Source of the DNA: an uncultured Asticcacaulis sp.
GTDB lineage: Bacteria > Pseudomonadota > Alphaproteobacteria > Caulobacterales > Caulobacteraceae
Length of the DNA: 35,853 nt
Assembly (NCBI GenBank): GCA_936940865.1
Contig: CAKZJB010000176.1
Span: forward strand, 1-35,853
Direction: 5' to 3'
The translations under genes and the position numbers were made by a program. This document shows, one piece after another, positions 21,966 to 35,761 of the stretch (position 1 is the stretch's first letter; every line of letters starts with the position of its first letter). Below the pieces are notes generated by a model. It was given only the letters and a program-made list of their open reading frames with translations, made no database searches and was not told where the DNA came from.

Positions 21966-22322
21966 TCAGGCGGGACTCTCGCTTCGCTGGCGATAGAGTC
22001 CCCAGACGGCAAGGACGAAAATCGCCGCGCCGCAAATCCACACGTTCCAGCTGGCGCTGCGATGATCGGTAAAGCCCAGAATCCAGGGGGAGGCGATCAG
22101 CCATGCGCCGGCGACCAGGTCGCCCCAGTCTTCCCACATCATGTTGGTGGACAGGGCGCCGACCCCAAGCAGGGCGACGACCAGTCCCGTAACCAGCGTG
22201 CTCCAGAACGGGGCCCCTGCCGGCGGCGGCTCAAGGCCCATGAGGTGCAGGCCCCACGGTGAAACGATCAGCCAGAGCCCGATAATGCCCATGGCCCATT
22301 CTTGCCAACGTTCGTATCTCAT
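21966..22322 (-). CDS. SPW repeat membrane protein
   Basis: A 118-aa integral membrane protein with four helices arranged as two copies of the SPW repeat: LWLIVSPWGLHL (about 16-27) and AWLIASPWILGF (about 72-83). The family is small, of unknown function, and often found in stress or envelope contexts. GGAG six bases before the ATG supports the start. It is last in a leftward operon after the BON and CBS genes and before a strong terminator, so it probably shares the FNR-type control of that operon. Confidence 0.85.
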   Translation of the reverse strand: MRYERWQEWAMGIIGLWLIVSPWGLHLMGLEPPPAGAPFWSTLVTGLVVALLGVGALSTNMMWEDWGDLVAGAWLIASPWILGFTDHRSASWNVWICGAAIFVLAVWGLYRQRSESPA

Positions 22323-22341
22323 CTCGATCTCCAGGTCTTGA

Positions 22342-22389
22342 CCGCCTGCCCGCGCGGACGCCCGGCAGGGCCGGCGCGCGGGCAGGCGG
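22342..22389 (-). promoter_or_regulatory. Strong GC hairpin between the CBS and SPW genes
   Basis: CCGCCTGCCCGCGC (22342-22355) and GCGCGGGCAGGCGG (22376-22389) form a perfect 14-bp stem with a 20-base loop. No T-run follows on the minus strand, so it is more likely an mRNA processing or stability element, or a Rho-linked pause, than a simple terminator. Confidence 0.6.
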
Positions 22390-22397
22390 GGCTTCGG

Positions 22398-22844
22398 TCA
22401 ATGGGCGGCGTGGTGGCCGGGCCTGGCCTTGGCCAGTTCACGCAGCACTTTCGGGCCATGGCTGCCTGAGGCCGCGTCGCGAAGAATTTCGGCCAGGGTG
22501 ACGATGCCCGTGACCTTCTTCCTGTTGGTGACGACGAGGCGCGCGACCTGTCGGGCTTTCATTTCGGCGGCCGCGTCCTCGACGTCGCTGTCCTGGTCGA
22601 TCGTATAGGCGCCCTTGGTCATGACGTCCTGGACCAGGGTAGTCTTCGGATCGCGGCCTTCGGCGATGACGCGCAGCGTGATATCGCGATCGGTCACGAT
22701 GCCGACCACGTCGCTGTCCGTCCCGACGGGAAGGCAGCCGCAATCGACGGTCTTCATCCGCCGCGCGGCCTCGTCGACCTTGTCCTGGGGACCGATCATC
22801 GTCGGATGGCCGGTCATGATATCCTTGATCTTGGTGGTGCTCAT
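22398..22844 (-). CDS. CBS-domain protein (two CBS domains)
   Basis: A 148-aa soluble protein made of a tandem CBS pair: KDIMTGHPTMIGPQDKVDEAARRM...VVGIVTDRDI (about 7-60) and VQDVMTKGAYTIDQDSDVEDAA...VTGIVTLAEIL (about 70-128). Such stand-alone CBS proteins bind adenine nucleotides and are thought to sense energy charge; comparable genes are part of hypoxic-dormancy regulons such as DosR. The start at 22844 follows GGGAG by seven bases; in-frame sequence further upstream is arginine- and tryptophan-rich and not family-like. It is the second gene of the BON-CBS-SPW operon. The partner is unknown. Confidence 0.9.
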   Translation of the reverse strand: MSTTKIKDIMTGHPTMIGPQDKVDEAARRMKTVDCGCLPVGTDSDVVGIVTDRDITLRVIAEGRDPKTTLVQDVMTKGAYTIDQDSDVEDAAAEMKARQVARLVVTNRKKVTGIVTLAEILRDAASGSHGPKVLRELAKARPGHHAAH

Positions 22845-22887
22845 TGAAATTCTCCCGTTGCTCCAGTCGATCATTCGCATGGCCGGC

Positions 22888-23535
22888 TTACGCCACCACC
22901 AGATGATCGGCCACCGACGCCACGCCCGGAACGGACCATGCCGCCCGCGCCGCCGCATTGCGCTCGGTCCAGGCGTGCACCTGGCCTTCGAGCGTCACGG
23001 AGTTTCCCGACACCTTGACCTGGATGGCGCCGGCTTCGAGTTCGGCATAGCGCTTGAGCGCATCTTGAATGTGCGTCTTGATGTTCGACGCGTTGACGGC
23101 CGGCTTGACCGTGACCTGATTGCTGATCCCGGTGACGCCCGTCAGCTTGCGCACGGCGGTCTCCGCCGCCAGCTTCTGGAACTGCCATTCGACGTCGCCG
23201 GTCAGGAAGACCCAGCCGTCCTGGACCTTGACCTTGACCCGGCCCTTCGGAATGGCCGTGTTCCATTCGATGACGTTGGCGGCGCGCTGGGCGATCTCGT
23301 TGTCGCCGGTCTTCTTGTCGGTCGGATAGACGACCTTGATTTCCTGGGCCACGCCGCGCACCCCCTTGACGCGAAGCGCCGCCTGCTCCGCGGCGACCTT
23401 TTCGGCATAGGAGCCGACCGAGCCGGCAAGTGTGGCGATCCCGTTTTCCACCGCGACGGCTATGCTGGCCGCATCGATGCTCGGGTCGAATTCCAGTTCG
23501 TCCAGGATTTCCTGGCGCAGGCTTAAATCATCCAT
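22888..23535 (-). CDS. Triple BON-domain protein (OsmY-like)
   Basis: A 215-aa protein of three BON domains, each with the glycine-centred pattern of V-x-V-x-x-G-x-V-x-L-x-G: about 25-70 (IATLAGSVGSYAEK), 95-140 (WVFLTGDVEWQFQK) and 165-213 (SVTLEGQVHAWTER). BON domains bind phospholipid, and OsmY-like proteins protect against osmotic and envelope stress. No signal peptide is seen, so the location is uncertain. AGGAG lies before the ATG at 23535. It is first in the operon. A perfect FNR/FixK box is centred 78 bases upstream and a TAGATT candidate -10 stands at the spacing expected for class II activation. Confidence 0.9.
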   Translation of the reverse strand: MDDLSLRQEILDELEFDPSIDAASIAVAVENGIATLAGSVGSYAEKVAAEQAALRVKGVRGVAQEIKVVYPTDKKTGDNEIAQRAANVIEWNTAIPKGRVKVKVQDGWVFLTGDVEWQFQKLAAETAVRKLTGVTGISNQVTVKPAVNASNIKTHIQDALKRYAELEAGAIQVKVSGNSVTLEGQVHAWTERNAAARAAWSVPGVASVADHLVVA

Positions 23536-23606
23536 GGTTAGTCTCCTGATAGCCGGGCCCACCCCGTACCGGTTGGAGAAATCTACGCCCGCAAGCAAAG
23601 GCGATT

Positions 23607-23620
23607 TTGATCATGATCAA
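23607..23620. promoter_or_regulatory. FNR/FixK-type box for the BON-CBS-SPW operon
   Basis: TTGATCATGATCAA is a perfect match to TTGAT-N4-ATCAA and fully palindromic. If centred at -41.5 for the leftward operon, transcription starts near 23572, and TAGATT (minus strand, 23580-23585) lies exactly at -13 to -8. Confidence 0.8.
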
Positions 23621-23665
23621 GCTTGGACGCCGTAGGGTGTCCTCCCCCTGTCTGATTTTCGAAGA

Positions 23666-23737
23666 AAAAAAGGGTGAAGGAATGCGGCGACGGAGGCTCG
23701 ATCCCGCAAAGCATTCCTTCACCCCGGGACAGCCCCG
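23666..23737 (-). ncRNA. Candidate small RNA ending in an intrinsic terminator
   Basis: On the minus strand a perfect 14-bp stem (23673-23686 with 23712-23725, 25-base loop) is followed directly by seven Ts (23666-23672). No gene lies upstream on that strand before the usp promoter. The FNR-type box at 23772-23785, if used leftward at -41.5, would start a transcript near 23737, and TATTGA stands at the -10 spacing. The predicted RNA is about 72 nt, with a CCUCC stretch in the loop that could pair with Shine-Dalgarno sequences. Confidence 0.4.
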
Positions 23738-23771
23738 TGGTCATCAATACATGCATCCGTGTGTCTCCATT

Positions 23772-23785
23772 TTGATGTCGGTCAA
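23772..23785. promoter_or_regulatory. FNR/FixK-type box upstream of usp
   Basis: TTGATGTCGGTCAA matches TTGAT-N4-ATCAA with one change. The centre is 60 bases before the usp ATG, giving a start near 23820 and a 19-base leader if used at -41.5. It may also serve the minus-strand small RNA. Confidence 0.7.
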
Positions 23786-23838
23786 AGTCGAGACCGCTAT
23801 TTCGAAGAAATATCCATGACAAATTCAGGGAGAATGCA

Positions 23839-24705
23839 ATGTCTGTCCGATCTATACTTTTTGTCTATCACGGCGAAGACTACGAAGCCTCGGCGCTGGA
23901 CGAGGCTTGCCGGCTGGCAATCCACACCAGGGCCGAAGTCCGCGTTCTGTACGTCATCGCTCCCCTGACCTGGTATCCGGACCTTTACGAGGGCGACGTC
24001 GTGCAGCTCGAGAAGGAAGGGCTGGCCCGGGCGGAAAAGGCGCAGGCGGCCGCCGAAAAATGTGCGGCCGCCCATGAGCTTCCGTTCACGCGCGAATGGT
24101 TTTCGGATCCTCAGCCCGTCATGCCGCGCATGGTCTTCCAGGCGGTGACGGGCGATCTGCGCGGGGAGATCAGAAAATTCGGGCGCGCATCCGACATCGT
24201 CGTGGCCGGCCGGGGTGCTCCGGACGCCGTTGTGAATCTCGATCATGTGCTGGCGGGGCTTCTGGAAGCCGGCACGCCCGTCCTCGTCATTCCCAGCGCC
24301 GCCGGGCCGTGGTTCGGCAAAAGCGACAGCGTGAAGTCCGTTGTCCTGGCCTGGGACGGCAGTCTGCAGGCTGGCCGCGCCATGCGCGCGCTGGAGGGGC
24401 TGGTGGCGCCAGGCCGGGCGGTTCAGATCATGTGTATCCTGCACGGCAACGGGTTGCGAGGGCCGTGTGATCCCTCGGTGGCGCGATCCTGGCTCGAATT
24501 GCATGGCTTTGCCGCGCATATCTCGCGCTCGGGGCCCTTCGTCACCCAGACGGGGGAAGCCGTTCTCAAGGGCGCCGGGCAGCTGGGCGCGGGACTGCTG
24601 GTGATGGGGGCGTACGGCCATAGCCACTGGAGCCAGGTTATCTGGGGCGGCGTGACCAGTCATGTGCTGAAGCACGCCGGCCTTCCCGTTCTTCTTCATC
24701 ATTGA
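23839..24705 (+). CDS. Universal stress protein, tandem UspA domains
   Basis: A 288-aa protein of two Usp domains: about 1-150 (SVRSILFVYHGEDYEASALDEA...TPVLVIP) and about 160-288 (VKSVVLAWDGSLQAGRAMRAL...GLPVLLHH). The second has the G-x2-G-x9-G(S/T)-like nucleotide loop as MGAYGHSHWSQVIWGGVTS, close to but not identical with the ATP-binding consensus. Tandem Usp proteins are common targets of hypoxic regulators. GGGAG lies before the ATG at 23839. It is transcribed alone from an FNR-boxed promoter. A hairpin spans the stop codon. Confidence 0.92.
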   Translation: MSVRSILFVYHGEDYEASALDEACRLAIHTRAEVRVLYVIAPLTWYPDLYEGDVVQLEKEGLARAEKAQAAAEKCAAAHELPFTREWFSDPQPVMPRMVFQAVTGDLRGEIRKFGRASDIVVAGRGAPDAVVNLDHVLAGLLEAGTPVLVIPSAAGPWFGKSDSVKSVVLAWDGSLQAGRAMRALEGLVAPGRAVQIMCILHGNGLRGPCDPSVARSWLELHGFAAHISRSGPFVTQTGEAVLKGAGQLGAGLLVMGAYGHSHWSQVIWGGVTSHVLKHAGLPVLLHH

Positions 24706-24717
24706 GGGAAGGCCGGC
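24676..24717 (+). terminator. Hairpin across the usp stop codon
   Basis: GCCGGCCTTCCC (24676-24687) and GGGAAGGCCGGC (24706-24717) are perfect 12-bp arms that enclose the last codons and the stop of usp. No T-run follows. It may end or protect the message. Confidence 0.5.
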
Positions 24718-24775
24718 GCTTCACGCGCCTGTCCGCATTTCCAGCCAGCCTGGCGTCACCTGGCGGAGACATGCG

Positions 24776-25228
24776 CTATTGCGACAGCGACCGGGCAAAA
24801 CGGCCGGACGCCGTCGAGGCGCGATCAATGGCAGGGTGTATCGCCCTGCAGACCGAGACACAGGTCTCGGCGTGAAGTCTGCCGAAGGTGGAGGCCATGG
24901 CGTTCACGATCCCGGCGCCTTCGGTCTCCAGTTCCGCGATATCGTCGCGGGTGCGGCAACCGGCGGCCCGCCGGCGCAGCGTCGAAAGCCTGGTATAGGC
25001 GTCGGTCGCCGCCGACGCATAGGCCCCGTTCATCTCGCCGCAGACCTGGCCGATGGCGCTTCCGGCCTCCATCAGGCCGAGAGCAGCCTCGGCGAAGGTC
25101 TCGGACCACACCGTGATCAGCTGGTTGCAGCGCTCGCCGGTCCTTTCGACAGCTTCGGCCGCGGCGCCGGCGAAGAGGCTGGATATTGTCTCGGGGCCCG
25201 CATGGGCGGGCGGTTCGGTGCGGGACAT
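24776..25228 (-). CDS. Phasin-like helical protein
   Basis: A 150-aa, almost entirely helical, alanine-rich soluble protein. Residues about 15-120 resemble the phasin family (amphipathic helix with FAGAAAEAVERTGERCNQLITVWSE), which coats polyhydroxyalkanoate granules. Three or four cysteines (C35, C64, C91 and the CVSVC pair near 125) are unusual for a phasin. No PHA synthase gene is in the window. AAAGG five bases before the ATG supports the start. It is the last gene of the operon begun at 26068. The family call is tentative; a generic coiled-coil protein is the alternative. Confidence 0.55.
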   Translation of the reverse strand: MSRTEPPAHAGPETISSLFAGAAAEAVERTGERCNQLITVWSETFAEAALGLMEAGSAIGQVCGEMNGAYASAATDAYTRLSTLRRRAAGCRTRDDIAELETEGAGIVNAMASTFGRLHAETCVSVCRAIHPAIDRASTASGRFARSLSQ

Positions 25229-25283
25229 GACGACCTTTCGTCTCGATGGATACGAAGGGCGAGCGGAGCCGCCCCGAAAGCGG

Positions 25284-25814
25284 CTACCCGGCCGCGCGTA
25301 CGGGCAGCAGTTCGCGCAGGCGGGCGGACAGGCGCGGCGGCGGAAGCCGCGTCAGATCCTTGGAAATTTCGAGCACGATGGCGTCCTTCACATCGGCGTT
25401 GAGATGGGACCTCAGGCTGCCGAGCCAGGCCGGGGGCGCGATGACCACCAGTTCGTCGAAGCGGTGGAGAAGCTTGGCGTGATTGAGGGCATTGGCCACC
25501 TTGCAGGCCAGGTCGTCCTTGAGCTTGCGGCGCAGATTGACGTGCGGGGCGCTGAGGTGGCGCAGCTTTCCGACGGATTCGAAGACGGTCGAAATCGCAT
25601 TCCGGCCGGCGTCGTAGGCGGCCAGGGGCTCGACCTTGTAGTCAAACTCCGGAACCGGTTCGAAAGCCCAGGTCTCCCGCTCTTCGGGACCGGACCGGTC
25701 GGACCGGACCTGGTTCTCCGGGCGCCGCGTCAGGATTTTCGCGCCGTCGCCGTCCGCGACCAGAATCCAGTATTTCGACCGGGCGCCGCGATAGGGCAGG
25801 ATGGGCCGATGCAT
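25284..25814 (-). CDS. Host attachment protein family (baeRF/eRF1-like)
   Basis: A 176-aa protein of the family first named for attachment of Agrobacterium to plant cells and later linked to bacterial eRF1-like folds. Diagnostic parts are the N-terminal KYWILVADGDGAKIL (about 15-28), the middle NLRRKLKDDLACKVANALN and the LVVIAPPAWLGSLRSHL segment (about 120-137). GGAGGT seven bases before the ATG at 25814 is the best ribosome site of this region; an ATG five codons earlier would overlap it. It is the second gene of an FNR-boxed operon. The biochemical role is unproven. Confidence 0.85.
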   Translation of the reverse strand: MHRPILPYRGARSKYWILVADGDGAKILTRRPENQVRSDRSGPEERETWAFEPVPEFDYKVEPLAAYDAGRNAISTVFESVGKLRHLSAPHVNLRRKLKDDLACKVANALNHAKLLHRFDELVVIAPPAWLGSLRSHLNADVKDAIVLEISKDLTRLPPPRLSARLRELLPVRAAG

Positions 25815-25846
25815 TGCACTTACCTCCATGTTTACCGGGGACGGGG

Positions 25847-26068
25847 CTATCTCGCCTGCAGGCGCTGCTGGACGATCGCGCCGACCACCACGCCCGAGGT
25901 GAGGCCGGTCAGCAGGGCGATCGCGGCCGCCGCGCGGGGATGCAGCCGGATCTGGCGAAGCGTGGTCAGGTCCACCGAACGCACCCGCCGCGCCGTCTCA
26001 TGAACAAGGTCCTGCATGGCGCCGATCGCTCCTTCCGGAGCCGGGGCGCGCTTGTGATGGGTCAACAT
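25847..26068 (-). CDS. Small single-pass membrane protein
   Basis: A 73-aa protein with one hydrophobic segment near the C-terminus (AAAAIALLTGLTSGVVVGAIV, about residues 45-65) and a basic amphipathic N-terminal part. The family was not recognised. Two starts compete: ATG 26089 and ATG 26068. The FNR-type box centred at 26129.5 predicts a transcript start near 26088, which excludes the first ATG, and AAAGGA lies eight bases before 26068, so 26068 is chosen. It is the first gene of an operon with the host attachment protein (32-base gap) and the phasin-like protein. Confidence 0.7.
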   Translation of the reverse strand: MLTHHKRAPAPEGAIGAMQDLVHETARRVRSVDLTTLRQIRLHPRAAAAIALLTGLTSGVVVGAIVQQRLQAR

Positions 26069-26122: not shown

Positions 26123-26136
26123 TTGATCTCGGTCAA
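26123..26136. promoter_or_regulatory. FNR/FixK-type box of the attachment operon
   Basis: TTGATCTCGGTCAA matches the FNR/FixK consensus with one change. Used leftward at -41.5 it gives a transcript start near 26088 and a 20-base leader before the ATG at 26068, almost the same geometry as at usp. Confidence 0.7.
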
Positions 26137-26158: not shown

Positions 26159-26809
26159 TCAGTCGATCAGGCGCAGGACCAGCGACTGCGTGGCCGTGCC
26201 GCTGCGTGTGCCCAGCTTGGCGTATATGCCGCGGATATGCGCGCGGACCGTGTGGACGGAGATATTGTTGGAGATGGCGATCTTCTTCGGACAGAGGCTG
26301 CGGACCAGGCCCAGCAGGACCTTGGTTTCCATCGCGGTCAGCCCGAATGCCTCGGCGACCGACCCTATGTCCAGGTGCTGGTCGGTCGGCCGGATCGCCA
26401 CCTCGAGGTGGCCGGTGTCGAGATCCAGGCAGCGGACATAGAGGCTGGTCCATTCCCCGTCCTCGACGGCGATGATCTTGTGATGTCTTTTCTTCAGATC
26501 CCGCCGCGTGTTGGCCAGGGCCTCGTCGAAGCTGGCCTGCGCGCGGCCGGAGCGGAAGCGCAGCTGGCGCATCCCGTTCAGGCAGAGGCCGCCGTCCTTG
26601 AGCATCTGGCGGCCAAGGAGATTGGCGAATTCGACGCTGTTGTCCTTGTTGAGAACGAACCTGATGTCCGGTGCGAACTCGAAGCTTTGCTGCAGGAGAT
26701 GGTGGGCGATCGAAGACGCGCTGTCTTCATAGGTTTCCCGAAACGGATAGACCGGGCGCGGGAGGGGGGAATGCGATACGACATCGTCAGCAAATTGGAT
26801 ATCTGGCAT
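26159..26809 (-). CDS. PAS-like/LuxR-family transcription regulator 1
   Basis: A 216-aa regulator. The N-terminal half (about 40-140) has a PAS-like pattern (FVLNKDNSVEFANLLGRQML). The C-terminal LuxR helix-turn-helix is at about 150-215: LTAMETKVLLGLVRSLCPKKIAISNNISVHTVRAHIRGIYAKLG. There is no receiver domain. It is a clear paralogue of the regulator at 31857-32507: both share VRCLD/ARCLD..GH(L/V)EV and ISVHTVRAHIR.IYAKLGTR. GAGGA before the ATG at 26809 supports the start. It lies just downstream of the fimbrial operon on the same strand, with its own FNR-type box at 26954. Likely targets are the fimbrial genes (inference from context). Confidence 0.85.
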   Translation of the reverse strand: MPDIQFADDVVSHSPLPRPVYPFRETYEDSASSIAHHLLQQSFEFAPDIRFVLNKDNSVEFANLLGRQMLKDGGLCLNGMRQLRFRSGRAQASFDEALANTRRDLKKRHHKIIAVEDGEWTSLYVRCLDLDTGHLEVAIRPTDQHLDIGSVAEAFGLTAMETKVLLGLVRSLCPKKIAISNNISVHTVRAHIRGIYAKLGTRSGTATQSLVLRLID

Positions 26810-26953: not shown

Positions 26954-26967
26954 TTGACCTCGATCAA
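26954..26967. promoter_or_regulatory. FNR/FixK-type box upstream of LuxR regulator 1
   Basis: TTGACCTCGATCAA (TTGATCGAGGTCAA on the minus strand) has one change from consensus. Leftward use at -41.5 gives a start near 26919 and a leader of about 110 bases, longer than at the other boxed genes. Confidence 0.6.
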
Positions 26968-26985: not shown

Positions 26986-27858
26986 TTACCGGGGCGAGAC
27001 CTCTATTGTTATAACATCGCTGTATGTACCGGCGAATTTGCCCTCGACGGAACCGATGGTGATATCCATGGGCAGGGAAAGCCCGTCTATCGTGGCCGGC
27101 GGATCCAGCGATTCCGTTGCCTTGAGGTTTAAATTTATTGGAATACCATTCAGAACCAGGGAATAGCTGATCGGCGAGGCGTCGGGCCAGGCCTCATTTC
27201 GCAGAACACCATGGTTTTTTGAGGAAATCTGGGCGAATACCCCTGTATTGGCGCGGATCTGGACGAAGGCACGCCGGTGCGCGCCGGTCGTGAGCTGGCC
27301 GAAATCGATGGCGGAGGCGTGCGAACTGCCGAAACGGCCCGAGGCTCCCGCGATATTGACCTGCGCGCGGGCCGGTACGCTGACGGTGAACGTGCCGTAG
27401 ACATAGGTGTCGGACGTCGCGGTGTCCGGCCGGATGCCGACCGCGAGCGGAACGTCGTACCGGCCCGGGTGCAACACGGCGTCCTGCCCCGGCTTGAAGG
27501 TCCATACGACCGTTGCGTGCGGCCGCGCCGGATCGAGGTGCAGTACCAGGGTGTCGGGGGTGAACGCCCCCGGCGTCTCGACGGTGAACAGCGCGGGGTT
27601 CGGACCGCCGACGGCGATCTGCTCGATCGGCTGCAACCGGCCGTCCAGGAGCCGCACGGTGACGTCGCACGCCTTGCCGTCGATCAGGTCCAGCGCCATT
27701 TCGGCCTGGGCATGCAGGCCGGACGCCGCGAAGGGGTCGTAGACCGTGGTCGTGGTTTTCAGGGCGCCGGGCCTGACCTCGCAGGCCTGGGCGGAGGACC
27801 AGAAGCCGAATGCCGCGGCGCTAATGGCCGTAAGAAGAGATATCGATCTTGCCAACAT
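26986..27858 (-). CDS. Spore coat U domain fimbrial protein, probable tip adhesin
   Basis: A 290-aa exported protein. A signal peptide (MLARSISLLTAISAAAFGFW, cleavage near AQA|CEV) is followed by two beta domains. The C-terminal one (about 150-290) is a spore-coat-U domain with the family ending GKFAGTYSDVITIEV. A two-domain SCPU protein at the end of a chaperone-usher operon usually forms the pilus tip. The start overlaps the end of the usher gene by 38 bases in another frame, which suggests translational coupling. The adhesin role is inferred from position and domain structure, by analogy to archaic and sigma-type pili. Confidence 0.85.
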   Translation of the reverse strand: MLARSISLLTAISAAAFGFWSSAQACEVRPGALKTTTTVYDPFAASGLHAQAEMALDLIDGKACDVTVRLLDGRLQPIEQIAVGGPNPALFTVETPGAFTPDTLVLHLDPARPHATVVWTFKPGQDAVLHPGRYDVPLAVGIRPDTATSDTYVYGTFTVSVPARAQVNIAGASGRFGSSHASAIDFGQLTTGAHRRAFVQIRANTGVFAQISSKNHGVLRNEAWPDASPISYSLVLNGIPINLNLKATESLDPPATIDGLSLPMDITIGSVEGKFAGTYSDVITIEVSPR

Positions 27859-30358
27859 TGACCAATCCGTTTCTGTCGTTGGGGATGGTGATCCGTTTGA
27901 CGGCGCGGCCTTCGAAGCGCAGCGTGTAGGAGCCGGCGGCCAGGCCGTCGATGACGAAGCGGCCCGCGCTGTTGGTGAAAATGGTCTGGGGTTCGAAACT
28001 CTTGTCGGTCTCGCTGGTGACGACCGCGGTGTGTTCGGCAATGGGCGCCCCGTTGTCCAGCAGGTAGCCGAGCGCCATCTTCCAGTGCGACGAACCGATC
28101 CGGACGCGGTAGGGCGAAGCCTGCGACGGGAAGACGCGGGGCGACGTGTCGACCAGATTGTAGCCGTCGGGCAGGCCGTCGACGTCGTAGGAATAGGTCC
28201 GCTCCGTATAGCTGCTTTCCAGGGGCACGACCGCCGGACCCAGAAGGCCGTTCCGGGCCTGAACGCGGTCGGCCTCATCGCGAACGACGACTTTCGAGCC
28301 CGTGAGGCTGGAATGCAGCGGAAGGATCATGAAGCCATGGCTCGACGGGCGGCCGATGGCGAAGCTGCCGTCGGCGAAGGTGACGGCGGTCGAAATGCGC
28401 AGGTGGGACTGGCGGCTGTCGCTTCCCGACTGCCGATAGTCGACGTTCTGTTCCGCATGGGCTTCGAAGCGGTTGTTGAGGTAGTTGACTTCGCCGGCGA
28501 TTTCCTTGCCGTGGCTGTCCTCCTGCACGGCGATGCGGCCGTCGAAGTCGTCGATGTGGTCTTCCCGGAAGCGCGACAGTTCGACCGTGCGCATGTGGTT
28601 GTCGTGAGTGTCGTAGCGTGCATCGACCGAACTTCGCTGACCGAGCGGCATACTGATGCCGAAGCTGATATAGCCGCCCAGCCGCCGGTCCGGGGCGCGC
28701 TCCATGCCCAGATTGACCGTCGCCGACAGCCTTGACCAGGATCTGGTCGCCGACAGCTCAACGGACTGCTGCCGCGGCAGGTGACGGAATTCCGCCGCGT
28801 GCGCACCCAGGGAAAGGGTAAGAACGGGCTGGCGCAGTTCGACGCGGCCATCGACCCGCCAGCGCTCCTCCACTTCCGAGCCCACAAGGACGTACGGCGA
28901 TGCAAAGTGCCCTGTCCTGGTCTCGGCCGACAGGGTCGTCACGATGCTGCTGCGCCGCGATATGGCGCTTTCCACGCGATAGTCGAGGGCGGCGGCCGAT
29001 CCGGACCTGCCGTCATAGCGGCTCATGGCGGCCGTAAGCCCTACGATCCCGAAATGGGTTCCCGTGGCGACCTGGGCCGAGACGAGCCAGTTGTGGCCGG
29101 CCGCCTGGCCTCCGATGCCGGCGGTCAGGCGGTCGGTAAAGCCCTTTGTCCAGTACCCGGACACCAGGACCGGTCCGCCGTAGCTGCCTTCGGACAGTCC
29201 GGGGCGCAGGCCGGCGGAAAAGCCGAAATCGGTAATTCCCCGTTGCAGAAGGTTGACGGAATTGAAAAGCGAAAGCGACGTGACTTCGCGGCGGCCGGCC
29301 AGATCCTCGACCAGCAGCTTCACGTTGCTGGCCCCATAGGGGACGCCGAAGTCCGAGAATTCATACCGGCCCGGCGCAAGGTGCAGGCGGCGGCTCTCCA
29401 GGCCGTTGACCAGCACGATGATGGTCGAGTCGCGGTCGAGCGTCAGGGCGCTCCGGCCCGACGGGTGGATGTTCTGGAAGGGGCGGATATCGTCGTAGTT
29501 CCTGGCGACGCTCAGGCCCAGCAGGGCGCCGGCGCCCTGAAGGCCCGTGATGGGAAGGTTGAATTCGCCGGCGTCGAGGCGAATGGCGCTGTCGAAAAAA
29601 TCGCGGGTGAGGCGCGTCTGCGACCTTTGCCACTTGGGGCCGCTGCCGAGGTCTGTCCAGGTTCCGCCAAAGCGAAACGTGGTTCCCGGAAAGCCGCCGG
29701 CCGTGACGAAGCCGTCGACATTGACGAACATGGGCAGGTCGAGCGTGCGCCCGTCCTGCTTCTCGTACGGCTTGTCGGCCGAGATCGTCACCGCGGATCC
29801 GAGCCGCGCCGGCGGCTGCACGGCCTTCAGATCGGGTGCGCCGCGGCCGGCGAGGGTGATGTGGTCGACATTGAGGTCGTCGAGCGCGATATCGACATGA
29901 AGTTCCAGCGCGGCCGGGTCGAACGCCACCTTGACGCCGGGAATGGTCAGCGACGCGATCGCGATCTGCGGCGTGTCCCCGGCCGCCTGGCGCAGGCGGG
30001 CAAGGTCGCGGGGCGTCAATATGCCGTCGAGCAGGGCCAGAAGCCGGGTGCTGTCGACGACGCCGTTGCCGCGGGCATCCACCTGGACTTCGATGTCGCC
30101 GAGTTCCTTGCGGTTTGCGATGACCGGTACGACGAGGGGCGTCAGGGCCGGCGGGGGCGGAGGCGGCGCCAGGCGGCGCACCGAGGTCACGGCGTCTTCC
30201 ACCACCGGCGACGCATCGCGGGGAGGGGCGCCGGGAGACGCGTCCGTGGCCCGCGCCCAGCCTGCAGCTGCGATCGCCCAGAAGACGATCGCCGATACCG
30301 GCGCGAGCGCGGGCCACGGACGGTCCCCGTGCGGTACGGGGCGCGACGTCCGGGTCAT
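27821..30358 (-). CDS. Fimbrial outer-membrane usher
   Basis: An 845-aa outer-membrane pore that assembles and secretes fimbrial subunits. Signal sequence with a long proline-rich segment (RLAPPPPPPALTPL, near 63-76), an N-terminal chaperone-binding domain (about 75-160), the barrel with DLNVDHITL, VDGFVTAGG and GVPYGASNVKLLVEDLAGR, and a C-terminal carboxypeptidase-regulatory-like beta domain (TIFTNSAGRFVIDGLAAGSYTLRF cut short here to its key GRFVIDGLAAG). The length matches ushers of spore-coat-U systems. It is four bases downstream of the chaperone gene and overlaps the tip gene. Confidence 0.92.
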   Translation of the reverse strand: MTRTSRPVPHGDRPWPALAPVSAIVFWAIAAAGWARATDASPGAPPRDASPVVEDAVTSVRRLAPPPPPPALTPLVVPVIANRKELGDIEVQVDARGNGVVDSTRLLALLDGILTPRDLARLRQAAGDTPQIAIASLTIPGVKVAFDPAALELHVDIALDDLNVDHITLAGRGAPDLKAVQPPARLGSAVTISADKPYEKQDGRTLDLPMFVNVDGFVTAGGFPGTTFRFGGTWTDLGSGPKWQRSQTRLTRDFFDSAIRLDAGEFNLPITGLQGAGALLGLSVARNYDDIRPFQNIHPSGRSALTLDRDSTIIVLVNGLESRRLHLAPGRYEFSDFGVPYGASNVKLLVEDLAGRREVTSLSLFNSVNLLQRGITDFGFSAGLRPGLSEGSYGGPVLVSGYWTKGFTDRLTAGIGGQAAGHNWLVSAQVATGTHFGIVGLTAAMSRYDGRSGSAAALDYRVESAISRRSSIVTTLSAETRTGHFASPYVLVGSEVEERWRVDGRVELRQPVLTLSLGAHAAEFRHLPRQQSVELSATRSWSRLSATVNLGMERAPDRRLGGYISFGISMPLGQRSSVDARYDTHDNHMRTVELSRFREDHIDDFDGRIAVQEDSHGKEIAGEVNYLNNRFEAHAEQNVDYRQSGSDSRQSHLRISTAVTFADGSFAIGRPSSHGFMILPLHSSLTGSKVVVRDEADRVQARNGLLGPAVVPLESSYTERTYSYDVDGLPDGYNLVDTSPRVFPSQASPYRVRIGSSHWKMALGYLLDNGAPIAEHTAVVTSETDKSFEPQTIFTNSAGRFVIDGLAAGSYTLRFEGRAVKRITIPNDRNGLVNVGKIDISSYGH

Positions 30359-30362
30359 GGAG

Positions 30363-31091
30363 CTACCGACCGACCGGGAGCGTCAGCGAGGCGCCGTCCG
30401 CAAGCTTGGGGTCGACGAACAGCCAGCGCGAAGCTCCCGGCGCCAGTTTGGACGTCTCTCCGTATTTGACCTTGTCTCCCGGCAAGGGCTCGGCATGGCC
30501 GCCGCGAACCAGCTGCCAGCCCGCGTCGGCCAGGTCCGCGACCCCGTCGCCGCTATTGTTGACCAGGGCGGTGACGTGCCCGTGTCCGTCCGGCTGCAGG
30601 TTCTGGGAAATGGACAGGGCCGACTTGGCCTTGGGAGACTGGACGACCGCCGTGGTATTGAAGTTGGTGGTCAGCGCGATCTTCGATGTCTTTCCGGGCT
30701 CCAGCTCCCTGGTGACGTAGGTCACGTTGAGCTGCTGGACCTTGACGACATAGATGCGGCCGGTGTCCACGTGGGGTTCGCCGATATAGCGGACCTGGAA
30801 CGACTGGGATTTTCCCGGCTGGACGGTCGCCTGCACGGGAAAAACCAGGAACTGGTCGTCGGCCGGCGTAAAGGTCCGCTTGCCATTCTCATCGACCTGG
30901 ACGCTGAAGACCTTGATTTCGAGATCGATCGGATTCGCGTCCGTATTGTCGACCGTCAGCCGCCTGCTGGACTGCTGGCCTGACGGCGCCAGGACATAGG
31001 ACATGGGCGAAACCTGATAGGCTTTCGCCGGGCCCACGGCCGCAGCGGAAATGAGTATTGCCGCCACGATGCGGCTAAGCGTCTTTGACAT
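30363..31091 (-). CDS. Periplasmic fimbrial chaperone
   Basis: A 242-aa PapD-like chaperone that completes the fold of fimbrial subunits by donor-strand complementation. Signal peptide (MSKTLSRIVAAILISAAAVG, cleavage near AKA|YQV). The Ig-like N-terminal domain has LAPSGQQSSRRLTVDNTDANP (key RLTVDN), the conserved FVFP-like FLVFPVQATVQPGKSQSFQVRYIG region, and a second domain ends in basic PVGR. GGAG five bases before the ATG supports the start. It is downstream of the pilin gene behind a partial terminator and directly upstream of the usher gene. Confidence 0.92.
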   Translation of the reverse strand: MSKTLSRIVAAILISAAAVGPAKAYQVSPMSYVLAPSGQQSSRRLTVDNTDANPIDLEIKVFSVQVDENGKRTFTPADDQFLVFPVQATVQPGKSQSFQVRYIGEPHVDTGRIYVVKVQQLNVTYVTRELEPGKTSKIALTTNFNTTAVVQSPKAKSALSISQNLQPDGHGHVTALVNNSGDGVADLADAGWQLVRGGHAEPLPGDKVKYGETSKLAPGASRWLFVDPKLADGASLTLPVGR

Positions 31092-31142: not shown

Positions 31143-31610
31143 TCAGCCGACGGTCAGCGTGAAGGTTTCCGAATAGGTGCCGGCGGCCCAGGGCAGGCTG
31201 GCCAGCTTCATCGTCATGTGGCCCGGCACGCCCGTGCCGAGTTCCGCGCCGCTGAACAGACCGATGTTGTACGGCGAGGTCGAGCCGTTCACTTGCGGCG
31301 TTTGCACCGCGTTGATCGGACCTTGCAGGTCGACGCCCCAGGTGTAGGCAATGGTGTTGGGGCCGTTCACGAGGGCGCCGTTCGTGGCCTTCACCGTCAG
31401 GTTCGGGTTGGTTTTGTTGTTGCATTGCACGTTGAGGTCGGCGATGCGTTGCAGGCTCAGCGTGCCCAGGTTCAGGGCCGGATTGGTGATCGTCACGCCG
31501 CACACCGCGGGCACGTTGCCGCTGACCGAGACGCTGTCGGCGAAGGCGGCATGGCTAGAAAGGCCCAGGGTGGCAGCGGCGGCAACGGCGAGGATTGCAA
31601 TCTTACGCAT
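31143..31610 (-). CDS. Major fimbrial subunit (spore coat U type pilin)
   Basis: A 155-aa exported subunit: signal peptide (MRKIAILAVAAAATLGLSS, cleavage near AFA|DSV), mature part of all-beta character with two cysteines (in PAVCGVTI and NVQCNNKT) fit for one disulfide, and a C-terminal strand ending TYSETFTLTVG, the usual SCPU/pilin donor-strand pattern. AAGGAG lies before the ATG. It is the first gene of the leftward pilin-chaperone-usher-tip operon. Its promoter must lie in 31611-31795; no full FNR box is seen at a class II distance, so control may pass through the flanking LuxR proteins (inference). Confidence 0.88.
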   Translation of the reverse strand: MRKIAILAVAAAATLGLSSHAAFADSVSVSGNVPAVCGVTITNPALNLGTLSLQRIADLNVQCNNKTNPNLTVKATNGALVNGPNTIAYTWGVDLQGPINAVQTPQVNGSTSPYNIGLFSGAELGTGVPGHMTMKLASLPWAAGTYSETFTLTVG

Positions 31611-31795: not shown

Positions 31796-31809
31796 TTGAT
31801 CGGGGTCAA
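31796..31809. promoter_or_regulatory. FNR/FixK-type box upstream of LuxR regulator 2
   Basis: TTGATCGGGGTCAA has one change from consensus. Rightward use at -41.5 gives a start near 31844, and TATGAA (31831-31836) stands exactly at -13 to -8. Confidence 0.75.
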
Positions 31810-31856: not shown

Positions 31857-32507
31857 ATGGAAGATCGGGTTCTTGCCGGCGACGCCCGGGACCATCACGC
31901 CGACACGGCGGCCGGGGACGATTGTTTCCCCGACGGAGCGAGCGTCGTGAAGACGTGGCGTCTGCTTTACAAGAGCTTCGAAAACGACCGCTGCAGCCGG
32001 TTCCTGATCGACAAGGATTTCAACCTGGTCCTTGCCAATGGCCGCGCCCGCCGCTTGCTCAAAAGCCAGGAAATATTGAGCGGCGGACGCACGCTCCATT
32101 TCAGGTTTCCGGCTGCCGAGGCCAGCCTGGAAGCGATCGTCGCGACCGCGCGCGGTCATGGCCATCATTGGCATCACAAGGTCGCGCCTATCCGGGAGGG
32201 GCGGTGGGCCAGTCTCTATGCCCGCTGCCTTGACCCGGATTCCGGCCATGTCGAAGTGCTGGTGCGGCCGCTGGAGCCGCCGCAAACCGAATCTTCCATG
32301 GCGCCGGTCATGGAAGCCTTCGCCTTGACCGCCATGGAGGCAAGGGTCCTGCTGGGGCTCGTTCTCAGCCTGTCGCCCAAGGTCATCGCGTCGCGGAACA
32401 GGATCTCGGTCCATACGGTCCGGGCGCATATCCGCAACATCTACGCCAAGCTCGGAACGCGCGGCAATTCCGCCACACTGTCCCTGGCGCTGCAGTTGTT
32501 GTCCTGA
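31857..32507 (+). CDS. PAS-like/LuxR-family transcription regulator 2
   Basis: A 216-aa paralogue of the regulator at 26159-26809 with the same layout: N-terminal PAS-like part (FLIDKDFNLVLANGRARRLL, about 50-69) and C-terminal LuxR helix-turn-helix (LTAMEARVLLGLVLSLSPKVIA...ISVHTVRAHIRNIYAKLG). The histidine-rich HGHHWHHK near residue 104 is not in the partner. The ATG at 31857 has GGAG nine bases upstream; an in-frame GTG at 31842 would precede the predicted transcript start. The last codons and the TGA stop lie inside a mosaic repeat copy, so the 3' end may have been altered by the repeat. Divergent from the pilin gene, it probably controls it. Confidence 0.87.
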   Translation: MEDRVLAGDARDHHADTAAGDDCFPDGASVVKTWRLLYKSFENDRCSRFLIDKDFNLVLANGRARRLLKSQEILSGGRTLHFRFPAAEASLEAIVATARGHGHHWHHKVAPIREGRWASLYARCLDPDSGHVEVLVRPLEPPQTESSMAPVMEAFALTAMEARVLLGLVLSLSPKVIASRNRISVHTVRAHIRNIYAKLGTRGNSATLSLALQLLS

Positions 32508-32605
32508 CGCTTCGCTCTTTGGGAGCAAGGCGGCGGCCGGCAAGGTACGAAAAGATTGGCGCCCTTGCCAGGGGCGAGCGGGTCAAGGTCAATCGCCGCG
32601 GGTAC
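32498..32605. repeat. Mosaic palindromic repeat, copy 2
   Basis: GTTGTCCTGACGCTTCGCTC (32498-32517) equals the right part of module B, then a spacer similar to copy 1 (AAGGCGGCGG) and module C from 32548 (CGAAAAGATTGGCGCCC) to 32605. Similarity to 21791-21895 runs over about 100 bases. The left end lies inside the luxR gene. Confidence 0.85.
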
Positions 32606-32675
32606 AATACCGACGGCGATTGGCCTGGTTGCGCAATGTATCCGAAAAGGGGTGTCCGCCTTATCGGGTTGCCGT

Positions 32676-33155
32676 CTATGGCAGGGCAATCATGTGCCGC
32701 TGGACGCGTCCGTCCGCGCCGGTGGACTGGCAGCCCGTATGGAGAAACCCGCACGCCGACAGCATGGCGGCCGCGCAGGCGTCGTTTTCCGCATGGCAGG
32801 CCTGGAGCGGGCGGTTGAACTGCCGGTCGCGCAAGGTTTTCAGGAATGCCAGGGCGGCGGCGGTGCCATATCCGCACCCCCTGTACCCCGGCGATATGAA
32901 GACGCGAAGGGCCGGGCAATGCGACTTTAGAACGCCTGCGAATTCGGAAGCGGCAAAGTCGAGTCCGACGTGGCCGACCCGCCGGCTGCCGACGAAAATA
33001 TCCCAGGAGGGCTGCCTTTCGGGACCGTCGGCAAAACCGTCCGTCGGCAGCATGTGGCGGGGCCTAAGTCTGATTTCGGCTTTCGATGCCGGTGACGCGA
33101 TAATCGAGGGTGGGGGAGAATAAGCGGCCTGGGGTTGCAGAACTGTGAGCGACAT
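32676..33155 (-). CDS. GNAT family N-acetyltransferase 2
   Basis: A 159-aa acetyltransferase. The acetyl-CoA loop is in ISPGYRGCGYGTAAALAFL (about 88-106) and the C-terminal CHAENDACAAAMLSACGFLHTG follows the RimJ/RimL-like pattern of Asn-x-x-Ala...G-F. The N-terminal 30 residues are proline-rich and may not be part of the fold. The start ATG 33155 has only a weak AGAG upstream. It lies 51 bases downstream of the FixK-type gene, so the two may be cotranscribed. The substrate is unknown. Confidence 0.8.
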   Translation of the reverse strand: MSLTVLQPQAAYSPPPSIIASPASKAEIRLRPRHMLPTDGFADGPERQPSWDIFVGSRRVGHVGLDFAASEFAGVLKSHCPALRVFISPGYRGCGYGTAAALAFLKTLRDRQFNRPLQACHAENDACAAAMLSACGFLHTGCQSTGADGRVQRHMIALP

Positions 33156-33206
33156 TTGGGTACTCTAAAAAGGGGATGAAATATAATGATGACGGCGCCG
33201 ATACCG

Positions 33207-33869
33207 TCAGTCGTAGTCGGCGCGCAGAATATCCCAGCGCAGGATATCCAGGCGATGCGGCGATACCTGGCGGACGACACCTGTCTTTTTGAGCTTGGAC
33301 AGGACGCGGGAAACCGTTTCGAGGGTAAGGCCGAGATAGTCTCCGATGTCGGTGCGCGTCATCGGCAGCATCAGGACGCCATCTCCCGAAGACTGCTGAC
33401 GCTCGGCCATTTCGACGAGAAAGGCGCGTACCCGCCCGACGGCATCCTGGCGGCCCAGGGCGAGAAGGTGGTTTTGAGCCTGGTTCAGGAGCTTCAGGGC
33501 AATCGCCAGGAATTGCTGCAGATCGTCGCCTGCGCCTGGTCGAAGGACCTGCAGTCCGGTCTTGGTGATGGCGTCGGCGAAGAACTGATGCTCGGCCTCG
33601 GTTTCGAGGCCGAAGACGTCGCCGGGCAGATGGAAGGCGTAGATCTGGCGCCGTCCGTCCGACAGGATGCGGTAGATGCGCACGAGGCCATAGGCGACCC
33701 GGTACACGGGACCGGTTTCATCGCCGGCGACATATATCTTTTGTCCGGAACGGAATGTCACCAGCGGTTTGCCGGCAATATGGTCCAGACCGCGGCGATC
33801 CTGTGCGGCACGGTCGGGAAACGTGATCTGGGAAGAACGCGGGGACATTGGTTGCAACGAGTCGAACAT
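33207..33869 (-). CDS. Crp/Fnr regulator of FixK type
   Basis: A 220-aa transcription factor: cNMP-binding-like beta roll (about 35-120), long dimer helix, and winged helix-turn-helix with TRTDIGDYLGLTLETVSRVLSKL. The recognition helix carries E-x-x-S-R (ETVSR), the set of residues that reads TTGAT half sites in FNR and FixK. The protein has no cysteine at all, so it cannot hold the FNR Fe-S cluster; FixK proteins lack it too. AAAGGG eight bases before the ATG at 33869 supports the start (a GTG three codons earlier is less likely). A FixJ-type gene is next upstream. It is the best candidate to bind the six TTGAY-N4-RTCAA boxes of this island. Confidence 0.88.
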   Translation of the reverse strand: MFDSLQPMSPRSSQITFPDRAAQDRRGLDHIAGKPLVTFRSGQKIYVAGDETGPVYRVAYGLVRIYRILSDGRRQIYAFHLPGDVFGLETEAEHQFFADAITKTGLQVLRPGAGDDLQQFLAIALKLLNQAQNHLLALGRQDAVGRVRAFLVEMAERQQSSGDGVLMLPMTRTDIGDYLGLTLETVSRVLSKLKKTGVVRQVSPHRLDILRWDILRADYD

Positions 33870-34127
33870 GGCTACCACCCTTTAACTGTTTATTGATTAT
33901 CTATCGCCCAAGTCCACTGGCAATCATATTCAGGAATATTGCCTAGGTAGTTTTACGTATCGGGTGCGGAAATTCTTTCTTCCGTTTAAGAATCCGCGCG
34001 ATGTTATAAGTACGCGAGTATTTCGCCGAGCGTTTAGTCGCGAATGCTCAGGTCAGTAGTTTTTTAATTAAACTTATTTTTTAAAATCGGCTGCCCATGG
34101 ACCCGTTGCGGCCAGGCAAACCTTATA
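33870..34127. promoter_or_regulatory. AT-rich promoter region of the FixK-type gene
   Basis: No gene. The stretch is much AT-richer than its neighbours. TAGGTAGTTTTACGTA (33944-33959), about 75-90 bases before the ATG, contains a spaced GTA repeat that might be a FixJ-type site; this is a weak suggestion from memory of fixK promoters. No FNR-type box is seen, so autoregulation by FixK is not evident. Confidence 0.3.
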
Positions 34128-34247
34128 CCAACGGTCGTAAAGAATGACCGTTGGCATTCGTTTTTTTCAGCTCAAACGCCGCATCGGCGGCGACGGGCAG
34201 TCGCCCTTGCCAACGGCGATCGGGTCAATGTCAATCGCCGCTGGTAT
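34128..34247. repeat. Mosaic palindromic repeat, copy 3
   Basis: Module A: CCAACGGTC (34128-34136) and GACCGTTGG (34146-34154), followed by seven Ts a few bases on, so this copy could also terminate rightward transcription. Module C: CGCCCTTGCCAACGGCGAT (34202-34220) to 34247, with arms like copy 1. Its right end reaches the first base of the fixJ-like stop codon. Confidence 0.85.
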
Positions 34248-34849
34248 TAGTTTTCCGAAACCGCCACCATCAGACGCACCAGTTGCGGCAGATTTCTGAT
34301 CCGCAGCTTGGACATCAGATTGGCGCGGTGAATCTCGACTGTGCGGGGACTGATATCGAGCCGGTGCGCGATCAGCTTGTTGGACAGGCCATCCACGATC
34401 GCGTCGAGAACCTGACGCTCACGCGTTGTCAGGGCCTGCAGCCGCTTTCGGATATCTTCGTGGCTCGGCGCTTCATCATGGGTTTTGGCGGGCGTGCACG
34501 CATTTTCCACGGCTTGCAACATCCTCTGGTCCTGAAAGGGCTTTTCCAGAAAGTCCGCCGCGCCCGCCTTCATGGCCTCCACGGCCTTGGAAACCTTTCC
34601 CTGTTCGGAAACGACGATCACCGGGGTTGCGTTGTCGCGGGCCTTTACCTCTTTGATCAGATCGAGGCCGCTAACGTCTGGCAGGCACATATCGGTAATA
34701 AGGCATGCCGGAATTGCACCGTCCAGTTCACCGAGAAAACTGCGGCCGCTGTCGTGCGTGCGGACGGCGTAGCCGGCGGTTACGAGGAGAAAGGCCAGGG
34801 AATTGCGGGCGGCTGCATCAGTGTCGATAATATGAATGACCTGACTCAT
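34247..34849 (-). CDS. FixJ-type response regulator
   Basis: A 200-aa two-component regulator: receiver (about 1-120) with phosphoacceptor Asp53 in ITDMCLPD, Ser81 and Lys103 in LEKPF, and a LuxR-type DNA-binding domain (about 137-198, TTRERQVLDAIVDGLSNKLIA...RTVEIHRANLMSKL), which is the FixJ/NarL layout. In the acidic pocket the usual D-D(-D) is D9-T10-D11, so one conserved acidic residue is Thr. No sensor kinase (FixL type) is in the window. It stands upstream of the FixK-type gene on the same strand with 377 bases between. A FixJ-to-FixK cascade is likely from family knowledge. The ATG at 34849 has a poor ribosome site. Confidence 0.87.
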   Translation of the reverse strand: MSQVIHIIDTDAAARNSLAFLLVTAGYAVRTHDSGRSFLGELDGAIPACLITDMCLPDVSGLDLIKEVKARDNATPVIVVSEQGKVSKAVEAMKAGAADFLEKPFQDQRMLQAVENACTPAKTHDEAPSHEDIRKRLQALTTRERQVLDAIVDGLSNKLIAHRLDISPRTVEIHRANLMSKLRIRNLPQLVRLMVAVSEN

Positions 34850-34965
34850 AGTAACGCGGGCTCACTGTTTGACGAGTTGCAGGCAGGACCGGATTGTGCT
34901 TGCTGAGGCGAAATCGCATGGCAAACAAGCACAACGGTCGGTTAAGGCGCGTGTTTTGACGCGCG

Positions 34966-35208
34966 TCAGAAAGCCGAAGGCGTTTCGCACCGGACGTTTC
35001 GTCCGGATAATGGGGAGCTGCGTCTGTTCAGAAGGGCGTGGCGGGCACCGGTAAAACCGTCGCCCTCCCTGCGGAAGCGATCAGAGAAAACGATATCGTA
35101 CAGTTGCTTTCTGCGCTGCACAAACTTGCCGTAGATATCCAACATGATGCGCCCCGGGGTTTTCAGCTTCCACTCAGCCCCATAGCTCGCTTTAGGCGGG
35201 AAATCCAT
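34966..35208 (-). CDS. Hypothetical protein, doubtful
   Basis: An 80-aa frame with no ribosome site and no recognised domain; it starts three bases after the stop of the next upstream frame. The basic, mixed composition (FVQRRKQLYDIVFSDRFRRE) could be real or chance. It could also be the broken remnant of a longer gene together with 35212-35490. Confidence 0.2.
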   Translation of the reverse strand: MDFPPKASYGAEWKLKTPGRIMLDIYGKFVQRRKQLYDIVFSDRFRREGDGFTGARHALLNRRSSPLSGRNVRCETPSAF

Positions 35209-35211
35209 TAA

Positions 35212-35490
35212 CTAAAGTTGATAATCAGGATGTGTTCTTCCAGGCGCAAAGTCCGCGCGCCCACCGCAAACCGGTGCTCCGAAAGGGAGGCTTTTTCGCT
35301 TAATATATTGAATAATATAAGATTTTAATAGGTGTTGATCAGGCAAAAATACAGTATACAACTTGTTAATACCGATAACATCAGGATTTGGATCATATGC
35401 TTCGAGGTATTTTTTGTACGAAGCGTACGCAATTTGGCACGCGCCCAGCCAATTCCGCCGGGGTTCCATAACGCAAAGAACGTCGAACAT
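35212..35490 (-). CDS. Hypothetical protein, AT-rich, possibly transferred or a remnant
   Basis: A 92-aa frame with protein-like composition (IAYASYKKYLEAYDPNPD, INKLYTVFLPDQHLL) and many A/T-ending codons, unlike the rest of the window. No Shine-Dalgarno sequence precedes the ATG and no family is recognised. It may be a recently acquired gene or the end of a degraded one. The FNR-type box at 35748 lies upstream on the same side. Confidence 0.3.
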   Translation of the reverse strand: MFDVLCVMEPRRNWLGACQIAYASYKKYLEAYDPNPDVIGINKLYTVFLPDQHLLKSYIIQYIKRKSLPFGAPVCGGRADFAPGRTHPDYQL

Positions 35491-35747
35491 GCGCGATCAT
35501 CGGGGATGTTGGGCATGCATCCGGCTGGCCGCCGGCGGACGCTGACAAGGAACCTGAAGGTATGGAATGTCCGCCTGGACGTCCCACGGCTTTCGCGGCG
35601 CGAGCGTCGGCATGCATAGAAATGTTCGGGCGCCGGCCCGGTTCCGCGCTCTCCCGCCAGATGCCGGGCCGGCCCCGTACCGCGCAAAGGGGGGACGGGC
35701 CCTTTTGGCGGAACACTGTCAGTCTGTCACGATCTCCGGCCCTTATC

Positions 35748-35761
35748 TTGATCTGGATCAA
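35748..35761. promoter_or_regulatory. FNR/FixK-type box without an obvious target
   Basis: TTGATCTGGATCAA is a full match to TTGAT-N4-ATCAA. No good candidate -10 stands at the class II distance on either strand within the window; the target may lie beyond the right edge, or leftward into the weak frames. Confidence 0.65.

Follow-up and report, generated by a model that had tools for sequence, protein, structure and literature searches.

A FixK/FNR-type regulon in an uncultured Asticcacaulis, with boxes at two luxR genes beside a chaperone-usher pilus operon

Introduction

The low-oxygen systems FixLJ-FixK of Caulobacter and FixK2 of Bradyrhizobium diazoefficiens use boxes of the type TTGAY-N4-RTCAA. 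This study concerns a 35,853-bp stretch of DNA from an uncultured Asticcacaulis sp. (contig CAKZJB010000176.1, positions 1 to 35,853; hereafter the window), in which six boxes of this type stand among genes for dormancy-type proteins, a FixK-type and a FixJ-type regulator, and two luxR genes that flank the operon of a chaperone-usher pilus. The host genome shares the fixL-fixJ-fixK genes and a cbb3 oxidase with the two described systems. It differs from them in three respects: its fixK paralogues number three, one fixJ/fixK pair has no fixL next to it, and a pilus cluster is accompanied by luxR genes that have boxes. The proteins induced by microoxia in Bradyrhizobium include Usp, CBS-domain, phasin and host-attachment proteins, in a paper with a table that counts the putative FixK2 targets (PMC6515984).

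Another system with similar gene content is the lxa locus of Burkholderia cenocepacia, which holds Usp genes and genes for a BON protein and a heat-shock protein, for which a FixK/Anr-like regulator has been proposed, and which has likewise been compared with DosR (PMC6127331). Its BON and Usp proteins increase together in sequential isolates, and attachment to host cells is 12-fold lower in an lxa deletion mutant (PMC6127331). The lxa locus comprises 50 genes in a bacterium of another class, and the main text of the paper never mentions pili (PMC6127331). Its likeness to the window is one of gene kinds.

Oxygen and fimbriae meet in Pseudomonas, where in the Anr-cgrABC-cupA system a global anaerobic regulator acts on the local regulator gene of chaperone-usher fimbriae; the local regulators of cupA are Cgr proteins, not PAS-LuxR proteins. 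A published list of the Anr regulon of Pseudomonas aeruginosa includes cgrA (PMC6588701). This is a precedent in principle for the arrangement described here, from a different class and with a different pilus. In the Escherichia coli common pilus, a LuxR-type regulator, EcpR/MatA, is encoded with a chaperone-usher pilus; the likeness here is the position of a LuxR-type regulator beside the pilus, no FNR/FixK link being claimed for ecp. In the open-access literature searched, we found no report of a pilus-linked PAS-LuxR gene preceded by a FixK/FNR box. It is the box at the pilus-linked luxR that forms the newer part of the present locus, the dormancy gene kinds and the principle of an anaerobic regulator acting on fimbriae being already known.

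A FixK/FNR-type regulon in the host genome

An exact pattern scan of the window finds six TTGAY-N4-RTCAA boxes and no seventh, against a mean of 0.05 in dinucleotide-preserving shuffles, 0 of 100 of which held at least six. The boxes begin at 23607, 23772, 26123, 26954, 31796 and 35748, and the first 23.6 kb contain none; in both respects the scan agrees with a first-pass annotation of this DNA. All six fall within 12.15 kb, a crowding reproduced in 0 of 20,000 random placements of the 46 sites of the genome.

Those 46 sites lie in an assembly of 5.07 Mb in 245 contigs, which holds just two matches to the reversed control pattern. They are strongly clustered, with nine on contig C126, five on C61 and four on C52 besides the six of the window. 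Of the 46 boxes, 41 lie outside called genes, and in 35 the box centre falls 40-160 bp 5' of a called start; such zones account for 8.6% of the 193 kb of DNA taken around the boxes, on which a simple in-house gene caller was run. Across the genus, genomes contain between 4 boxes and the 46 of the host, and control patterns 0-8.

Gene products outside the window were named by eye from sequence and gene order, except where Pfam is cited. The boxed neighbours on C126 are usp, a phasin-like protein (Phasin_2 22.1 bits, under the cut-off of 24.9), ackA, the set fixL-fixJ-fixT-like-fixK, hemN and a cbb3-type oxidase. Those on C61 are the anaerobic ribonucleotide reductase pair nrdD/nrdG, narKGHJI and a CRP-type regulator, those on C52 a cation ATPase and dehydrogenases, and further boxed usp genes occur on C208, C223 and C227. 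Since typical FNR/FixK targets stand behind many of the boxes, the boxes mark a real FNR/FixK-type regulon, even if part of the 46 have no typical low-oxygen neighbour gene. The window is one of several box clusters and not a master locus. That it might be the sole oxygen island of the genome was considered and rejected, given the nine boxes and canonical fix genes of C126 and the boxes of C61 and C52. An even spread of boxes through the genome had been named beforehand in the first-pass annotation as refuting its proposal; the spread is clustered. A gene of unknown kind on C227 (L031:7800-8987), patatin-like by eye, has a box 59.5 bp upstream.

Within the window, the centre of box TTGATCATGATCAA (23607..23620) lies 78.5 bp 5' of the start of the BON gene, that of TTGATGTCGGTCAA (23772..23785) 60.5 bp 5' of usp, and that of TTGATCTCGGTCAA (26123..26136) 61.5 bp 5' of the small gene at the head of the host-attachment operon. 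Box TTGACCTCGATCAA (26954..26967) is centred 151.5 bp 5' of luxR1, and box TTGATCGGGGTCAA (31796..31809) 54.5 bp 5' of luxR2 and 192.5 bp 5' of the divergent pilin gene. The last box, TTGATCTGGATCAA (35748..35761), is 92 bp from the end of the contig, which is the whole window and stops at 35853, so that no target gene is in view. The targets proposed earlier are thus recovered at five boxes, leaving the box at 35748 without one.

The distances at the BON gene, usp, the host-attachment head gene and luxR2 are like those of class II activation. A -10-like hexamer is found 21 nt past the box at the BON gene (TAGATT) and past box 31796 on the luxR2 side (TATGAA), each agreeing in four of six letters, and others at the same distance past the boxes of the host-attachment head gene and luxR1; at usp there is no good -10 hexamer 20-22 nt past the box. 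The class II fit suggested in the first-pass annotation is supported, as to distances, at several genes.

Repeats about 40-110 bp long recur in intergenic DNA of the window, at 21791-21897, 32498-32607, 34174-34249 and 35797-35835. The contig ends directly after one of these copies, which may be why the assembly breaks there.

Boxes at luxR genes linked to the pilus

The two luxR genes flank the pilus operon. LuxR1 (26159..26809, minus strand; PF00196) is a GerE-type regulator encoded downstream of the operon, and luxR2 (31857..32507, plus strand; PF00196) is divergent from the pilin gene; the two proteins are 47% identical. The AlphaFold model of LuxR2 has a PAS domain and a LuxR helix-turn-helix (HTH), with a mean predicted local distance difference test (pLDDT) of 82.8, pLDDT values below 50 for residues 1-26 and a predicted template modelling score (pTM) of 0.67; together with structure comparison, it suggests a PAS-GerE one-component regulator of PAS-LuxR architecture. 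This predicted fold of PAS and LuxR HTH is common to VqmA, at an identity of about 20% and with a high root-mean-square deviation that reflects a different placement of the two domains; matches to PAS or HTH domains taken singly have scores about as good. No NCBIfam model names these PAS-LuxR regulators above its cut-off.

The operon between them is a single unit on the minus strand. It begins with a putative major pilin (31143..31610), recognised from its position before the chaperone and from a gene so placed in the 18 loci of the usher-profile scan described below; the window copy matches no family, and in one relative SCPU reaches 11.9 bits, below the cut-off of 22.4. There follow a divergent PapD-like periplasmic chaperone (30363..31091; PapD_N 18.6 bits, below the cut-off of 23, with homologues at 33.8 bits in L134, 19.8 in L130 and 19.1 in L142), the outer-membrane usher (27821..30358; PF00577 36.7 bits against a cut-off of 27.1) and a putative tip adhesin (26986..27858), which has no family above noise and is conserved in position and sequence in relatives. 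A search of solved structures by sequence with the usher profile gave no match at E 0.01. Within the genus this cluster is an accessory one: among the other genus genomes of a draw of 149 Caulobacteraceae genomes, LuxR is found in none, and one has a weak partial usher match.

In that draw as a whole, LuxR occurs in 8 genomes and the usher in 22, host included. LuxR adjoins the usher in all six of the other genomes with the closest ushers; the seventh other LuxR genome, G074, has no usher match. A scan with an usher profile, for which the ushers of the window and of six LuxR-linked clusters had been combined, then yielded 18 loci: 14 from Brevundimonas, one from Peiella, two from Caulobacter and one from a metagenome-assembled genome (MAG) of the Sphingomonadales. 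A LuxR of at least 131 bits lies inside the pilus cluster in 17 of 17 Caulobacteraceae loci, and the LuxR of the MAG is weak (62 bits).

Exact boxes are present in four of these 18 loci (372 kb), one in each of L134, L135, L136 and L142, and all four are intergenic and upstream of the pilus-linked luxR. From the box centre to the luxR start picked by script, the distance is 224.5, 219.5, 198.5 and 141.5 bp, respectively, in genomes with 8, 14, 11 and 6 boxes in total. In the 250-bp luxR zones of the 18 genomes, 0.0116 boxes are expected (about 0.0006 per genome) against the four observed, giving P ~7e-10 under a uniform distribution and ~7e-6 with a ten-fold intergenic enrichment; reckoned from non-coding length P is 2e-5, and from the number of gaps 8e-5. 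The idea was formed on boxes at the luxR of the Peiella and B. bullata clusters, and the other two boxed loci were found later. With the four previously seen loci omitted (two of them boxed), the remaining 14 hold two boxes, both at luxR, and P becomes ~4e-5 (uniform), 0.0035 (ten-fold enrichment) or 0.005-0.009 (by non-coding share). Eight control patterns, made with other spacers, by reversal or by letter swaps, match 0-2 times each in the 18 loci and the window, and none of these matches falls at a pilus-linked luxR promoter.

On a tree of the ushers, the boxed clusters of the window, L134, L142 and L135 stand on deep branches, with B. bullata as the fifth. On the LuxR tree the box label requires three changes, a number as low being reached by 9 of 500 shuffles. 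The path from FixK/FNR through PAS-LuxR to the pilus is a predicted circuit that recurs. Since four of the five boxed clusters are on deep usher branches, a tentative reading is that this circuit may have arisen early in the family and been lost later in many Brevundimonas and Caulobacter strains.

A class-wide profile search of 385 genomes, host included, finds LuxR in 4 and the usher in 14. The existence of the circuit outside the family was considered and rejected: in the eight usher and three LuxR loci examined there, usher and LuxR never occur together, and the only box among them (L151:1801) is away from the operon. A second, weak GerE-type regulator (51-58 bits), encoded on the minus strand at about 5149-8068 and divergent from the pilin, is seen in L137-L141 and L144-L147. 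These nine loci belong to Brevundimonas and Caulobacter, and none is boxed at the main luxR.

FixK and FixJ paralogues

The FixK-type regulator of the window (33207..33848, minus strand) has the Pfam domains HTH_Crp_2, Crp and cNMP_binding, contains LGLTLETVSRVLSKL, and has no cysteines. Its recognition helix reads ETVSR, which confirms the first-pass annotation. It scores 141.6 bits with the NCBIfam equivalog for Caulobacter FixK, under the cut-off of 300, and is therefore named a FixK-type paralogue rather than a FixK orthologue. The FixJ-type response regulator (34247..34849, minus strand) has the expected receiver and GerE domains (Pfam), and its NCBIfam FixJ score is 244.1 bits, below the cut-off of 255. 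No kinase open reading frame that could be its fixL partner was found in the 1 kb upstream, up to the contig end.

The canonical fixL-fixJ-fixT-like-fixK set is on C126, and its order is repeated in three congeners (L127, L128 and L129); the fixJ and fixK of the window are additional copies. The host has three FixK paralogues in all, the other two, on C126 (L021:9588-10205) and C68 (5862-6509), being 50-51% identical to the window copy. The helix ETVSR is present in all three, and the gene at 33207 therefore need not encode the acting factor. The window copy is alone among the three in lacking cysteine. In the whole host genome, HTH_Crp_2 has 17 matches, of which 11 are above the cut-off.

Between luxR2 and fixK lies a gene for a GNAT acetyltransferase (32676-33155). 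The cgrB gene of the Pseudomonas cupA cluster also encodes a GNAT protein, a parallel that is possibly a coincidence.

Dormancy-type genes

The remaining boxed genes of the window encode proteins of the dormancy type. The first operon, on the minus strand, runs from the BON-domain gene (22888..23535; PF04972) through a CBS-domain gene (22398..22844, with the start from the gene call; PF00571 was matched on the longer frame 22398-22958) to an SPW-repeat gene (21966..22322; PF03779). The universal stress protein gene usp (23839..24705, plus strand; PF00582) is followed by a gene on the minus strand for an uncharacterised protein, perhaps phasin-like by eye (24776..25228; no Pfam or NCBIfam support). 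The host-attachment operon, also on the minus strand, is headed by a gene for a small protein with a hydrophobic stretch (25847..26068; a gene call with no NCBIfam match) and includes that for a host-attachment/baeRF12-family protein (25284..25814; PF10116, PF18856).

Of 25 genomes in the genus, host included, 8 encode a relative of the BON protein and 8 a relative of the host-attachment protein. At eight other BON loci, the three most similar (56, 56 and 48% identity) are boxed 67-147 bp upstream, and the five at 41-43% are unboxed; of five host-attachment loci examined among the seven others, the two closest are boxed and the three distant ones unboxed. In the congeners L104 and L105, a dense boxed cluster carries usp and BON genes, a gene possibly for a small heat-shock protein, and genes for an ATPase and dehydrogenases (by eye), much the same regulon in a different order.

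The dormancy-type gene content is ordinary: a FixK regulon would be expected to have it, and it contributes little. As a frame for it, the DosR regulon was set aside as not the closest: the resemblance in gene kinds that had been pointed out earlier does exist, but it is loose, and both the gene kinds and the FNR/FixK type of the boxes are nearer to the FixK2 and lxa systems.

Discussion

The reading that we favour, with a probability of about 0.6, is that an accessory chaperone-usher pilus has been wired, through its local regulators, into a FixLJ-FixK/FNR low-oxygen regulon of the ordinary kind. When oxygen falls, the canonical FixL-FixJ encoded on C126 would raise FixK. One or more of the FixK paralogues would then bind the boxes and switch on their targets in the window: the BON-CBS-SPW and host-attachment operons, usp, luxR1 and luxR2. 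The two LuxR proteins would in turn set the expression of the pilin-chaperone-usher-adhesin operon, perhaps jointly with a second signal that acts on the PAS domain. What is observed are the boxes, the genes, their spacing, the enrichment of boxes across the genome and their return at pilus-linked luxR genes; we infer the binding of FixK, the induction at low oxygen, the control of the pilus by LuxR and the sign of that control. The first-pass annotation had tied an oxygen island to fimbriae; a chaperone-usher pilus is indeed associated, but it is the flanking luxR genes that the boxes front, not the pilus operon. Because the luxR box recurs in four other Caulobacteraceae loci, the link between oxygen and the pilus is better supported than that annotation could know. 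The wider proposal is that in Caulobacteraceae a FixK/FNR regulator controls the divergent chaperone-usher pilus through a dedicated, pilus-linked PAS-LuxR that could itself respond to a second signal, attachment thus being gated by oxygen limitation and that signal together; it is a tentative one, which we hold to be possible rather than probable.

Several observations weigh against these proposals. The pilus operon has no box of its own, and no motif is common to the pilin promoters, in the sense of gapped 5+5 words in at least 5 of 11 upstream regions (11 of 19 regions were used, near-copies being left out; the shuffle maximum was 3, and degenerate sites would be missed). It is therefore gene linkage by itself that points to the step from LuxR to pilus, and the linkage in 17 of 17 loci is biased, the query having been built from LuxR-linked clusters, four of which (L135, L136, L138 and L139) are among the 18 loci. 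Among the 22 usher genomes of the family draw, 15, with more distant ushers, have no LuxR match, and in the eight examined of 13 usher loci from other families there is neither LuxR nor a box at the operon. Moreover, 13 of the 17 linked luxR genes are unboxed within 450 bp of the start even when one mismatch is allowed, the 250-bp zone was picked after the hits had been seen, and the distances from box to luxR in the relatives require long leaders. On the usher tree the boxed loci do not group together (the label needs four changes, as low in 172 of 500 shuffles), and the deep order of that tree, with its long branches, is unsure. The L142 genome has no FixK homologue at E 1e-8 and just six boxes against three control sites. 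In the window, the -10-like hexamers agree in just three to four of six letters.

Much of this would also be expected if the boxes were real FNR-family sites and the pilus stood outside the response, the neighbourhood of luxR being incidental or luxR controlling other things. The unboxed operon, the pilin promoters without a shared motif, the unboxed majority of linked luxR genes and the more distant pilus clusters that do without this LuxR all speak for such an account. We nevertheless consider it unlikely, as LuxR accompanies the pilus throughout the Caulobacteraceae loci even with the bias of the query, two luxR paralogues flank the operon in the host, and G074 is the sole LuxR genome of the 149 without a usher match. 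It is less likely still that the boxes are read mainly by another member of the CRP/FNR family, such as the DNR-like regulator of C61, with nitric oxide or nitrate respiration as the signal. That regulator, named by eye, sits among boxed nar genes and has a helix of the E..SR form (ENLSR), and HTH_Crp_2 has the 17 matches in the genome given above; on the other side stand the three FixK paralogues with ETVSR, one of them adjoined by the canonical FixLJ, and the presence of an oxidase cluster and hemN among the boxed genes. That the boxes are a chance clustering of short palindromes with no regulatory meaning is very improbable. The pattern specifies just 10 positions, and counts per genome in the genus are 4-46 against 0-8 for control patterns, but the shuffles, the random placements, the promoter position of 35 of the 46 boxes and their retention at the closest relatives oppose it. 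These counts oppose chance for the set as a whole, and a single box could still be due to chance.

The favoured reading, a FixK/FNR regulon with the pilus attached through its LuxR regulators, makes for a testable wiring: in the related loci examined, the sole exact box near the pilus, where there is one, is at the pilus's own luxR gene. If true, it would give the PAS-LuxR regulators a function and an input, and would provide a parallel, built with different parts, to the Anr-cgr-cupA system of Pseudomonas. These cells may link surface adhesion to oxygen shortage, and the circuit, if it works as predicted, would reveal how adhesion is coupled to oxygen limitation in some Caulobacteraceae.

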